From Mesorhizobium sp. AR07 (GTDB lineage Bacteria > Pseudomonadota > Alphaproteobacteria > Rhizobiales > Rhizobiaceae), in the NCBI RefSeq assembly GCF_024746815.1, contig NZ_CP080525.1, positions 868,001 through 932,000 on the forward strand: a stretch of DNA of 64,000 nucleotides, in the 5' to 3' direction. The position numbers and the translations under genes are program-made. The notes under the pieces are model-generated. The model did no database searches. It saw only the letters and a program-made list of their open reading frames with translations, and was not told where the DNA came from. Within the stretch, counting starts at the first letter, position 1. Every line of letters begins with the position of its first letter. Positions 27,119 through 34,601 of this stretch are shown piece after piece.

Positions 27119-28075
27119 TCAATAGGTTACGGTGACGATAATGGTGTCGCTGTACACGCCAGGCGAGGGCGTAGTCTGGGGCGGCACGCGACCATAGACG
27201 GTAACGTTCTGTGCCGCTCCGCTGCCTGTGCCTGATACCGTGCTGCCCGGCGTCGAGGGATCGCCCCAAGGTTGGGTTCGGTTGGTGTCCTTGTATAATC
27301 CGTAGGTAACTGACTCGCCGCCCAGCGTCATGAGCCGGCCCGTTGGGCCTGTACCTGTGAGCCCATTGCTCAAAGCCACGGTATAGGCATTCCCCGGTGT
27401 GCATGTGATCGAAACCGTGCCGGTCGCGTCAACATTGGCGCTCAGGACGCCTTGGGGGCCAAAGTCGATATTCTGGGTCGCAACCAAACAATTCGCCGGA
27501 ACAGTGGCCGTGACGTTGAAGCTCGGCCGCGCGATGGTGCCCACGCCGGTGTTGCAAGTACTTCCGCTGGAGTACTGATAGCGGAACTCGACATCGCTAC
27601 CAGAAAATGCCGACAGGTAGCTGCCTGGCGGCGCTGTGGCCTGACTGCCGAGGACGGCACCATAGACTGTTGCACTTCCAGAGCCGGAACCTAGCACGCC
27701 CAGTGTCAGAGCAATTGCAGGAGCCCGAGCCGGGAATGCCCACGCATAGGAACCCCAGACGACGGATCGCGCCGCGTCCGAAAAAAGCTGGTAGTTGAGA
27801 CTATTTGCACCGCTCAGCATCTGTCGGGCAGCGGCCGTCGCGCCGCCAGTCCCATTGCCGATATTGGGGCAGATCAGGATGCGCTGAAGCAATATGCCGG
27901 TGCAATTGTAGCTTACCGTCGCAGTTGAGTTCGCCTGGGCTCCGGACAGCGTGTCGACGTTCCCGAAACTCAACGCGGAAACTCCGAAGCTACAACTTTG
28001 GCCCCAGCCCAGCGTCGGCCAGAGCGACATCAACACCAGCGGGAGAAGTCGAAGCGTCTTCCAGGAAGGCATCAT
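27119..28075 (-). CDS. Spore coat U (SCPU) domain protein, Csu pilus tip (CsuE)-like, 318 aa
   Basis: Signal peptide at the start (LRLLPLVLMSLWPTLGWGQ). Two tandem SCPU/CsuAB-like beta domains follow: the first starts SCSFGVSALSFGNVD, the second CLVATQNIDFGPQG, and each ends with the family's Y/V-rich strand (YGAVLGSQ; YGRVPPQTTPSPG...IVTVTY). A two-domain SCPU protein after an usher is the layout of CsuE, the tip subunit of Csu archaic chaperone-usher pili. It overlaps the usher fragment by ATGA, confirming the operon order. The other csu genes are missing, so it is probably an orphan. Confidence 0.8.
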   Translation of the reverse strand: MMPSWKTLRLLPLVLMSLWPTLGWGQSCSFGVSALSFGNVDTLSGAQANSTATVSYNCTGILLQRILICPNIGNGTGGATAAARQMLSGANSLNYQLFSDAARSVVWGSYAWAFPARAPAIALTLGVLGSGSGSATVYGAVLGSQATAPPGSYLSAFSGSDVEFRYQYSSGSTCNTGVGTIARPSFNVTATVPANCLVATQNIDFGPQGVLSANVDATGTVSITCTPGNAYTVALSNGLTGTGPTGRLMTLGGESVTYGLYKDTNRTQPWGDPSTPGSTVSGTGSGAAQNVTVYGRVPPQTTPSPGVYSDTIIVTVTY

Positions 28076-28824
28076 TGGCACACCACGTTTCCGATCTGAA
28101 CCTGTTGGCCGGGAGCTGGATCATAGGCAAACTGGGCCGCGCACGTGCTCCCGTCGGCGCGTTCGATCACAATGGCATTTTGCCGTTCAAGGCCATGAAT
28201 ATAGGCCTCGCCGTCATAGCCAACGACAAAGGTCTCAAGACTGTTCTCCAGCCTGCCACTCACCCCAGCTTCAAGCGGGGCACCCCCTTTATCGATGAAC
28301 GAAACCAGTGCTGCCTTGGGCTTGTTCGACACTCCGAACCGAATCACGACGCCGCTGCGGTCGGCTGGGACCACAATGTCTTTGGTAGACGGTACATCGG
28401 CATCGACGGGCAGGTTGCTCGGATCGATCGAGACGGTGTTCGGTTCGTAGGACTTTAGCCCTGGTATGAGGATGAGGCCTCGGCTGTTGGTCCTACCGAT
28501 TGGCCGGTTCTGGTACTGCACCGCTACCCCGGGGACGCCAGCGTCAACGACCGCAAAGGCGTCATCGATGCGATTGGTGGCAAACACGCTGCCTCCGGCC
28601 AGAGCGATCGCGCCGTCCACCTCCGCCGTTGCTCGAAAGTCATTACCGTACTGCTGGACGCCGGCTTCGACGCGGGCGACCGGCGCACGGTAGCTGACGT
28701 CGGCCGAACGGTTCGGCGTGTTCCCCTCGGATGTTGATAGCCGCCAGCCGACGCTGCCGTCTTCCGGACGTTCTGACTTGCTTACATCGGCGACGACATT
28801 GGTGGCGGGGTCCACTTTGGCCAC
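28072..28824 (-). pseudogene. C-terminal fragment of a Csu-type fimbrial usher (CsuD-like)
   Basis: About 250 residues of an outer-membrane usher C-terminus. It contains AEVDGAIALAGGSVFATNRI, NRPIGRTNSRGLILIPGLKS, YEPNTVSIDPSNLPVDADVP, VPADRSGVVIRF and FVVGYDGEAYIHGL, all blocks of the last beta strands and C-terminal domains of FimD/CsuD ushers. The N-terminal plug, most of the barrel and the signal peptide are missing. Upstream of about 28800-28824 the reading frame runs into DNA that encodes an L,D-transpeptidase in a different frame. This is a deletion junction. Cannot make a functional usher. Confidence 0.8.
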
Positions 28825-29216
28825 TTGCGCTTGTACTGGATTTTCGCGCGCCCACCCCAGGCGAAGCCATCGCGTCCGATACCGACTCCATACCGGATGG
28901 CGCGACCGTTTTCTTGGACGAGGTAAAGAAAGCGCTTTGGGGTATCGACGACGATCGTCCCCGGCTTCTCGCCGGTTGGATCTTTCACAGCCTGCCGATA
29001 ATACTTGGGATCGATCAAATCGATCCGTGCCGCTGGCACGGGAAACTTTTCGCCGGGGATGGCGGCGTACATCATTGCAGGGTCCGGCATCGCTGGTCGT
29101 GTGTCGGCGACAAACGCGGCCGGCGGTGTCGTCGTGCATCCTGCCACAGCGGCAGCTGCCAGCCCGGTGGCGCCAAACAGAAACTGCCTGCGCCCCATCA
29201 AGAGTTGGGTTTTCAT
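28800..29216 (-). pseudogene. N-terminal half of an L,D-transpeptidase (Tat/lipoprotein type), truncated
   Basis: The N-terminus has a twin-arginine-like signal with a lipobox-like end (GRRQFLFGATGLAAAAVAGC). The YkuD domain then begins: PGTIVVDTPKRFLYLVQENG, AIRYGVGIGRDGFAWGG and YKRKWPKWTPPP, closely matching ErfK/YbiS-family N-terminal halves. After WTPPP the similarity stops, and the catalytic SxGC region is lost to the junction with the usher fragment. The open frame continues only a few residues. An intact paralogue is at 46767-47897. Confidence 0.8.
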
Positions 29217-29873: not shown

Positions 29874-29975
29874 TCAGCCAAGGACGAAGCCGGCCAAAAG
29901 GACCGCAAGAACAAGCGAGAGGGGTACCGCAAGAAGCCAGCGAGCCTCCAGAATGCTGTTGTGCTGATTATCCAC
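29874..29975 (-). CDS. Very short single-TM protein, 33 aa
   Basis: GTG start at 29975, TGA at 29874-29876. The N-terminal part is polar (MDNQHNSILEAR), followed by one clean hydrophobic helix (WLLAVPLSLVLAVLLAGFVL) and a terminal Gly. It begins 9 bp after the stop of the 28-aa gene on the same strand and probably shares its transcript, giving two tiny membrane proteins in tandem. Start assignment is tentative because no clear ribosome site was seen; translation could be coupled. Function unknown. Confidence 0.5.
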   Translation of the reverse strand: MDNQHNSILEARWLLAVPLSLVLAVLLAGFVLG

Positions 29976-29984
29976 GACGGGACC

Positions 29985-30071
29985 CTAGTACCAGCGTCCA
30001 CGACCGTAAAAACCGCCACCGCCCAGCACAATAACAATAAGAACTATGACCAGAATTGTGGTGATATCCAT
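29985..30071 (-). CDS. Very short membrane protein, 28 aa, with stress-type promoter
   Basis: ATG at 30071 is preceded by an excellent ribosome site (AGGAGG, 6 bp away). The product is a single hydrophobic helix (MDITTILVIVLIVIVLGGGG) with a short basic-aromatic tail (FYGRGRWY). I recall similar tiny proteins in other Rhizobiales, loosely like DUF3309, but could not check. A GGAAC-N17-CGTT promoter at 30161-30186 points to sigma-EcfG control. The membrane role is unknown. Confidence 0.7.
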   Translation of the reverse strand: MDITTILVIVLIVIVLGGGGFYGRGRWY

Positions 30072-30160
30072 ATGCACCTCCTGAGCGCGCCGGCCGGGTT
30101 CGCCGTTCGCCGCTCTTGCCCCTGTGGGGCATCGATTGTTCCTGTCACTTGACATCCACC

Positions 30161-30186
30161 AACGTTCCGCACGGCATCCTTGTTCC
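30161..30186 (-). promoter_or_regulatory. Sigma-EcfG-type promoter for the tandem micro-genes
   Basis: On the minus strand GGAAC (30186-30182) is followed after 17 bases by CGTT (30164-30161), an exact match to the general stress sigma factor consensus GGAAC-N16/17-CGTT. It lies 90 bp before the 28-aa gene start. Confidence 0.7.
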
Positions 30187-30522: not shown

Positions 30523-30738
30523 ATGGCGCTAACCGCTGTGCAAAAGCCCTATGAAACAGCCTATTTTGCCAGAAAGCACGGGATCACACAGGCCCAGGCA
30601 CGGCGGATCACCAAGGACTTCGGCCCTTTACGTGTCAGGTGCGACATTGCCGCCCAGAATCTGAACTTGGCCCTGACAGGCTCATCGCCCTTGCATGAGC
30701 GTCGGCCAGCATCTGTGTCTTCGACACCGAAGAAATAA
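30523..30738 (+). CDS. Small DUF3606-like protein, 71 aa
   Basis: The core KPYETAYFARKHGITQAQARRI with TKDFGPLRVRCDIAAQNL resembles the DUF3606 pattern (YE...FGV/T...A...GPS...A). The last 20 residues (SSPLHERRPASVSSTPKK) are unlike the family and may be frame run-on. A purine-rich AAGAAAAG precedes the ATG. It is convergent to a related gene at 30788-30982; the two share YxxxYFxxKxGxTxxxAxxIxxxxGPxRxxCDxAA. Function unknown; DUF3606 genes are frequent in Rhizobiales. Confidence 0.5.
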   Translation: MALTAVQKPYETAYFARKHGITQAQARRITKDFGPLRVRCDIAAQNLNLALTGSSPLHERRPASVSSTPKK

Positions 30739-30787: not shown

Positions 30788-30982
30788 TCAACGAATCCAC
30801 TTCCTGAACCTCGCGGCTTTATTCCGCACGAATGCAGCAGCTGCCGCATCACACGTCCTTCGCGATGGTCCATTCGCGGCGATGATGAACTTGGCGTCTC
30901 TCAGCGTGAGACCGTACTTCTTTGAAAAGTAGATTGCTCCATAAGGCTCGTCTTGGGGTATGTCCCCGTTCGTGTGGGCCAT
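30788..30982 (-). CDS. Small DUF3606-like protein, 64 aa, paralogue of 30523-30738
   Basis: Reads DEPYGAIYFSKKYGLTLRDA then KFIIAANGPSRRTCDAAAAAF, matching the DUF3606-like pattern and its convergent neighbour. ATG 30982 is preceded by GAGG. The longer frame to 31276 overlaps the hydrolase gene on the other strand and is not used. An EcfG-type promoter (GGAAC-N17-GGTT) lies 68 bp upstream. Probably a small stress-induced soluble protein (inference). Confidence 0.6.
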   Translation of the reverse strand: MAHTNGDIPQDEPYGAIYFSKKYGLTLRDAKFIIAANGPSRRTCDAAAAAFVRNKAARFRKWIR

Positions 30983-31049
30983 TTGTGCCTCGCATGACGA
31001 ATAGTCCGGTTCGACTTCGGCCTCTTCCGCGCGCCCGGTCTGGTACATC

Positions 31050-34228: not shown

Positions 34229-34531
34229 CTACCGCCGTAGCGCGTAAACGCTTGCCATGCTTTCGCCGGCCACCGGCAACGCCATGTCGTCGTCGAGCAG
34301 GCGCGTGATGCGGGCAAAGCCTGTAAACGCTTTCCTTGCTTCCTCGGCCGACATCTGGCCCGACAGAGCGGCCGAGCAGCAATTCAGCGCGCACTGATAA
34401 ACCGGACCGCGCCGTCCCGTCGGCCATTTCCGCAAGAACACCATGGCCTCGGCAACGCTATCGACTTCTTCAACAGGATGTCCCTGCCCGCGCGAAATTC
34501 GCACGGGCGAAAAGAAATGCAGATAATCCAT
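34229..34531 (-). CDS. DUF982 protein, 100 aa
   Basis: Carries the DUF982 pattern: FFSPVRISRGQGHPVEEVDS at the start, then AEAMVFLRKWPTGRRGPVYQCALNCCSAAL (read in two parts around residues 27-56), then EEARKAFTGFARITRLL. DUF982 proteins are short, soluble and almost confined to Rhizobiales; function unknown. A perfect-consensus EcfG promoter (GGAAC-N16-CGTT) lies 46 bp upstream, so it belongs to the general stress regulon by sequence. Confidence 0.85.
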   Translation of the reverse strand: MDYLHFFSPVRISRGQGHPVEEVDSVAEAMVFLRKWPTGRRGPVYQCALNCCSAALSGQMSAEEARKAFTGFARITRLLDDDMALPVAGESMASVYALRR

Positions 34532-34576: not shown

Positions 34577-34601
34577 AACGCACCCTCACCCAGTTGGTTC
34601 C
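34577..34601 (-). promoter_or_regulatory. Sigma-EcfG-type promoter for the DUF982 gene
   Basis: Minus strand GGAAC (34601-34597), 16-base spacer, CGTT (34580-34577): exact consensus for the alphaproteobacterial general stress sigma factor. Confidence 0.7.

Follow-up and report, generated by a model that had tools for sequence, protein, structure and literature searches.

The locus lies in a 64,000-nucleotide stretch of a Mesorhizobium sp. AR07 contig (NZ_CP080525.1, positions 868,001 to 932,000; hereafter the window); this contig is 6.66 Mb long and the whole genome 8.73 Mb. All of its features are on the minus strand. A sigma-EcfG-type promoter (30161-30186), with a -35 element GGAAC at 30182-30186, a 17-base spacer and a -10 element CGTT at 30161-30164, precedes an AGGAGG at 30077-30082 that forms the ribosome-binding site of ORF1, 5 bases ahead of its ATG; both were read directly. 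ORF1 (29985-30071, 28 aa) starts with the ATG at 30071, ends with a TAG at 29985-29987, and encodes a short relative of DUF3309, in which GGGGFYGRGRWY comes after a hydrophobic stretch. A spacer of 9 bases (29976-29984) separates it from ORF2 (29874-29975, 33 aa), which starts with a GTG at 29975, ends with a TGA at 29874-29876, encodes one predicted helix, and is in phase with ORF1. ORF2 has no ribosome-binding site of its own here. A first-pass annotation, made from the sequence alone, had described this arrangement of a 28-codon frame with AGGAGG, 9 bp and a 33-codon frame behind GGAAC-N17-CGTT, and it proved exact on direct reading, as did its assignment of a ribosome site to ORF1 only.

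The same annotation assigned one hydrophobic helix to each frame. Indeed, the best 19-residue Kyte-Doolittle mean was 2.66 for ORF1 and 2.77 for ORF2, and AlphaFold2, run on the single sequence, modeled ORF2 as one helix spanning residues 3-32 (mean pLDDT 88.2). Both products are thus predicted to have the size (at most 50 aa) and the one transmembrane helix of stress-induced small membrane proteins, as judged by hydropathy for both and by AlphaFold2 for ORF2 alone.

ORF1 was compared with known systems. It aligns to profile positions 1-26 of 50 of DUF3309 (PF11752) with an E of 0.0014, and six of ten ORF1 relatives match at E<=1, the best at 1.9e-4. Full membership of DUF3309 was rejected, as ORF1 scores 19.2 bits against a cut-off of 22.3 and its 27-28 aa leave the second half of the profile absent. 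Weak TatA-like matches in NCBIfam (best E 0.0057; those shown for the ORF1 of the window lie far under the cut-offs) were taken as hydrophobic-helix noise. The two products also resemble YohP and other stress-induced small membrane proteins in their length (27-33 aa), their one hydrophobic stretch and their stress-linked control, which is predicted from the promoter motif for ORF1 and ORF2 and shown by experiment for YohP; the likeness lies in these features and is no claim of sequence relation. According to the available part of PMC12719787, YohP (27 aa) lowers the membrane potential of E. coli and goes with down-regulated metabolic enzymes. Unlike that of E. coli YohP, the putative sigma-EcfG control of ORF1 and ORF2 is alphaproteobacterial, and YohP may serve as a model for ORF1 by analogy only. 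In S. meliloti, SEP6 is described as a protein of <30 aa with one predicted transmembrane helix, conserved in Hyphomicrobiales and recovered chiefly in the P100 pellet of membranes and ribosomes (PMC10117765). On this description SEP6 may be an ORF1 relative, which is a lead and not a result.

The surroundings of the pair were also inspected. Two related small frames without a Pfam match, which we take to be DUF3606-like, flank ORF1/ORF2 (30523-30738, plus strand; 30791-31018, minus strand). They recur beside the copies in L009, L011, L014, L017 and L020, as if frames and ORF copies had been duplicated together as a cassette. The stretch 28072-29216 (minus strand) holds the start of an L,D-transpeptidase (YkuD; profile positions 3-65 of 146 only) that runs into another frame, where the C-terminal portion of an outer membrane usher is encoded; these are apparently broken gene remnants.

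Conservation and spread of the two families

Among 146 genomes of the genus, 116 contain relatives of ORF2 at E<=1, where matches at E 0.05-1 may include chance ones, and 79 do so at E<1e-3 by a hand count of the match table. From a longer match list, 91 ORF2 loci (L009-L039 and L044-L103) were read: 31 were taken from the search output or by place, and the other 60 were selected by rank, with weaker matches sampled as well. They were picked on protein similarity, with the promoter playing no part; all 91 held an ORF2 match and none was dropped. The frame has 32-35 codons in 86 of these loci and exactly 33 in 77, and the five outside this range (L009, L046, L048, L082, L097) all adjoin ORF1. 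Computed on the 75 distinct 33-codon frames only, 37 independent pairs gave a pN/pS of 0.245, which at the level of codon change shows ORF2 to be under purifying selection across the genus. Among 39 aligned members E10, L14, A16, V17, P18 and S20 are invariant. The start codon is ATG at 71 of the 72 loci where ORF2 stands without ORF1 (solo loci); that of the window is GTG.

Scans of the 39 members returned no credible Pfam model (best E 0.06, a COX2 transmembrane model), no NCBIfam family and no match in a PDB sequence search, and a literature search of main texts brought up no paper recognised as describing the family. As far as these searches show, the ORF2 family is undescribed; stress-induced small membrane proteins as a kind are already known. 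The first-pass remark that ORF2 would be missed by most annotation fits the lack of a Pfam or NCBIfam model.

The family appears to be centred on Mesorhizobium. A search with the core EARWLLAVP returned 48 loci, 45 of them in Mesorhizobium-titled records and the other three in records titled Alphaproteobacteria, Rhizobiales and Hyphomicrobiales bacterium. In a family-wide search of 297 genomes, eight had a match at E<=0.01, four of them of the genus itself. One ORF2 outside the genus was accepted (G209), a match of 36 residues in a 36-aa frame with the promoter motif 162 bases upstream and T in place of the otherwise invariant S20 (L107); the three others (E 0.004-0.009), which sit inside frames of 291-716 codons, were not. 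An order-wide search of 297 genomes gave 23 with a match at E<=0.05, five of them of the genus, and no further ORF2 was accepted there: 16 of the 18 matches outside the genus lie inside frames of 308-637 codons, and the short frames in G582 and G492 showed no ORF2-like gene or motif when read.

Divergent forms were seen as well. At L104 and L105 the promoter motif likewise precedes two tiny genes in tandem, a 30-aa QARWLLAP frame and then a divergent ORF2 relative reading MFRDKETR..LEAALFMAVPLS. In the genome of the window, L112 (G000:C1:3585301-3585396, plus strand) is a fourth, divergent ORF2-like copy that ends overlapping a further 42-aa frame. This assembly (G000, 8.73 Mb) is listed with 10.97% contamination, and extra ORF copies in it therefore need careful reading.

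At E<=0.1, 33 of the 146 genomes contain ORF1, one of them (G031) only weakly, and 32 of the 49 listed ORF1 matches were read as loci. Changes over 11 of its loci amount to 21 synonymous and 5 nonsynonymous. The absence of either frame from relatives, or an excess of nonsynonymous over synonymous change, had been named beforehand as grounds for abandoning the first-pass reading; both frames are conserved, and change in both leans the other way. At the DNA level, the ORF1 region used as query hit 78 plasmid records, in Sinorhizobium, Rhizobium, Ensifer, Phyllobacterium, Pararhizobium and Methylocapsa. Among the 20 plasmid matches listed, all cover the ORF1 part of the query; the annotation beneath them is none in 15 and hypothetical protein in 3, the remaining 2 records carry no annotation, and the gene table used is incomplete by its own description. 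Six plasmid matches, in Phyllobacterium, Sinorhizobium, Rhizobium and Ensifer, were examined at sequence level; each holds the 27-28-residue ORF1 core, and five have GGAAC-N16-CGTT upstream; in the plasmid relative L216, ORF1 runs on in frame and the motif is absent. A tblastn search of ORF1 against plasmids found no match although the DNA search did, so tblastn negatives say little for queries as short as ORF1 and ORF2, and the lack of a plasmid match in tblastn with ORF2 is a weak negative for so short a query.

The promoter motif, gene spacing and fused loci

We then examined the promoter motif across both families. GGAAC-N16/17-CGTT occurs on the coding strand within 300 bases upstream of ORF2 in 69 of 91 loci, on the opposite strand in none of the 91, and in 28 of 860 control tiles taken from these loci. 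At loci without ORF1 the motif was found upstream in 50 of 72, and 359 letter-rearranged motifs averaged 0.30 of 72; CGGAA with CGTT came out highest among them, at 22 of 72, and most likely represents the same sites read one base off. Removal of similar upstream regions left the motif at 29 of 46 ORF2 loci without ORF1. ORF1 has it within 200 bases upstream in 24 of 32 loci. The exact motif is missing within 300 bases at 22 of the 72 solo ORF2 loci, three PF04120-linked ones included. Eight of these 22 have a version with one mismatch, but rearranged motifs can reach this number as well (mean 1.7, maximum 8 of 22 over 59 such controls); five (L024, L026, L032, L033, L049) carry the motif in exact form farther out, at 369-451 bases upstream.

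The genome of the window also encodes NepR, the anti-sigma factor of the sigma-EcfG system (PF18557, 59.9 bits at one place, cut-off 25.7); a second match scores 25.4 bits, or 26.3 with neighbouring residues, against the same cut-off. With a conserved promoter motif and with NepR present, the genes are predicted to belong to the sigma-EcfG (RpoE2) regulon. The identification of the motif as the sigma-EcfG consensus, made in the first-pass annotation, agrees with the GGAAC-N16-CGTT consensus reported for R. etli EcfG1 (PMC3892343) and with the spacing of 16-17 reported for M. extorquens (PMC4814048), each in the part of the source available. Elsewhere in the window, the only other exact GGAAC-N16/17-CGTT (N16; 34577-34601, minus strand) lies 45 bases before a DUF982 gene (34229-34531, minus strand, 60.8 bits).

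Co-conservation of the pair together with its promoter had been set as a check. The counts support, at the level of sequence, co-conservation of the sigma-EcfG motif with each of the two families; a conserved pairing is not supported. ORF1 is upstream in 19 of the 91 ORF2 loci and absent from 72, and ORF2 or a remnant of it lies within 400 bases downstream in 14 of the 32 ORF1 loci, with none in 18. By this count the pair is not the conserved unit; as a rule ORF2 is unpaired and has a promoter and a ribosome site to itself.

In an alignment of 18 loci, the spacing of paired genes falls into two classes. Unfused pairs have 84-90 bases between the genes, which hold the promoter of ORF2, intact or decayed, and its ribosome site. 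The gap is 84-86 bases with an intact second promoter (GGAACC...CGTT) and ribosome site in L016, L020 and L044-L047; the promoter of ORF2 has decayed in L009, the second copy in the genome of the window, and in L030, L073 and L075. The window and seven relatives have a spacer of 7-10 bases and no second promoter. About 75 bases with the ORF2 promoter and ribosome site are absent in this clade. A GGAG, GAGG or AGGA site stands ahead of ORF2 at 59 of 72 solo loci and in 10 of 10 unfused pairs, but at 0 of 8 fused loci. The most plausible account of the 9-base spacing is a deletion that took the promoter and ribosome site of ORF2, and we infer that the change ran in this direction. Since ORF2 lacks both, it would be readable at the window locus only from the ORF1 transcript. 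Taken together, we consider it probable that two independent general-stress microprotein genes were here joined by deletion into one transcription unit.

A further question is whether ORF2 is still used after such a fusion. With ORF1-anchored loci included there are 11 fused loci (a pattern read had missed L187, L198 and L210). ORF1 is intact in all 11; ORF2 is intact in six and damaged in five (L048, L209, L185, L192 and L210, the last counted as damaged for want of any ORF2 match). Changes among the six intact loci are 8 synonymous to 8 nonsynonymous for ORF2 and 7 to 1 for ORF1. This shows that ORF1 is clearly kept at the window locus and ORF2 less strictly. ORF2 may thus be a dead remnant here, only ORF1 being made and the second frame surviving because the fusion is recent; the lost promoter and ribosome site, the damage at related loci and the GTG start all suit this reading, which we regard as a serious possibility. 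However, all 33 codons are kept in six fused loci, and spacers of 7-10 bases suit reinitiation. The 8:8 ratio is still below neutral (P=0.037, from a simple binomial on sites and not a tree), and the ORF2 of the window has a pN/pS of 0.14-0.35 against four intact fused relatives; ORF2 may therefore matter more at this locus than the damage elsewhere would indicate.

The first-pass reading of the locus, a conserved and co-selected stress operon whose two helices act jointly, draws on the 19 ORF2 loci with ORF1 upstream and on three unfused pairs (L016, L020, L047) in which both genes keep sigma-EcfG promoters. Most loci of either family nevertheless lack the other gene, ORF1 occurs on plasmids of several genera while a single ORF2 from beyond the genus was accepted in the family and order samples, and nearly half of the fused loci carry a damaged ORF2. 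We therefore judge joint selection of the two unlikely, and the first-pass interpretation as a whole is partly supported.

Downstream neighbours and a possible role of ORF2

The genes that follow ORF2 were scored by codon position, as mechanical clustering had picked shadow frames. A PF04120 ('Iron_permease', 'iron permease') gene directly follows ORF2 in 21 of 91 loci, starting 5-8 bases past the ORF2 stop or overlapping it by ATGA (L049, L056, L066). The adjoining genes encode relatives of a single small protein whose PF04120 score is 28.2 bits (cut-off 25), and the 21 loci may descend from one ancestral arrangement. The promoter motif is present in 18 of them. The three loci with the ATGA overlap have no exact motif within 300 bases, L049 having one at 395, and are perhaps under different control. 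Five other loci have a DUF1236-like frame after ORF2 (Pfam scan on a relative, L130), L030 has a Transgly_assoc (PF04226) gene and L083 a gene for a PAS-domain protein.

The PF04120 protein is a neighbour of ORF2 and not a relative, and its iron transport is annotation only. Such tight coupling of ORF2 to a membrane-protein gene hints at a partner bound helix to helix, in the manner of AcrZ, MgtS and MgrB, which are named in PMC12719787. The adjacency is the best lead to the function of ORF2. The genome of the window has three PF04120 matches, none of them beside ORF2, and the idea of a partner is therefore not directly applicable at the window locus.

These neighbours also bear on whether one or both products could be membrane-depolarising peptides of the TisB/Ldr type, that is, type I toxins. 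A general-stress promoter is present at most loci and another membrane-protein gene often follows ORF2 closely, which is not usual for type I toxins, and an Rfam search matched no antisense RNA. We think this identity quite unlikely, even though the products are small and hydrophobic, and several copies occur in one genome. The precedent of YohP, a 27-aa E. coli helix that lowers membrane potential (PMC12719787, available part), speaks for it.

A non-coding stress RNA with accidental frames is highly improbable: several rpoE2-dependent transcripts of S. meliloti are called sRNAs (PMC3616915, available part), but an Rfam search of the locus gave no match, both frames are conserved codon by codon, and the length of ORF2 is constant. 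We give hardly any credence to a single 65-residue protein made by TAG readthrough, or to an in-frame fusion broken by a stop, as the frames are in phase in the window across 9 bases, but six of the seven other fused loci are out of phase (spacers of 7, 8 or 10, with 9 in one) and unfused relatives have two separate genes.

For two stress genes joined by deletion, the following course of events can be proposed. Under stress, the PhyR-NepR switch would release sigma-EcfG, which would transcribe leftwards from about 30152. Ribosomes loading at the AGGAGG would translate ORF1 well, and the arginine-containing C-terminus (RGR) of the 28-aa helix would stay inside, giving an N-out, C-in topology like that of E. 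coli YohP. ORF2, if made, would be produced at a low level by ribosomes that finish ORF1 and restart 9 bases on (reinitiation). Elsewhere, ORF2 would be a separate stress gene, and at roughly one in four of the loci examined it immediately precedes a PF04120 gene; given this adjacency, its likely role would be to bind and tune a membrane partner through the conserved E10, P18 and S20. We tentatively suggest that ORF2 represents a new Mesorhizobium-centred family of ~33-aa single-helix proteins that could act as small subunits or regulators of the PF04120 protein in the sigma-EcfG response, with orphan copies, that of the window included, re-wired by promoter loss onto another microprotein gene.

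If this is true, a family without a Pfam or NCBIfam model, present in one to several copies per genome, would be tied to the general stress response of nitrogen-fixing symbionts, in 79 of the 146 genomes of the genus at E<1e-3. The adjacency to PF04120 would provide a direct experimental handle on how a stress microprotein acts, and the fused loci would show how microprotein genes are re-wired through small deletions.
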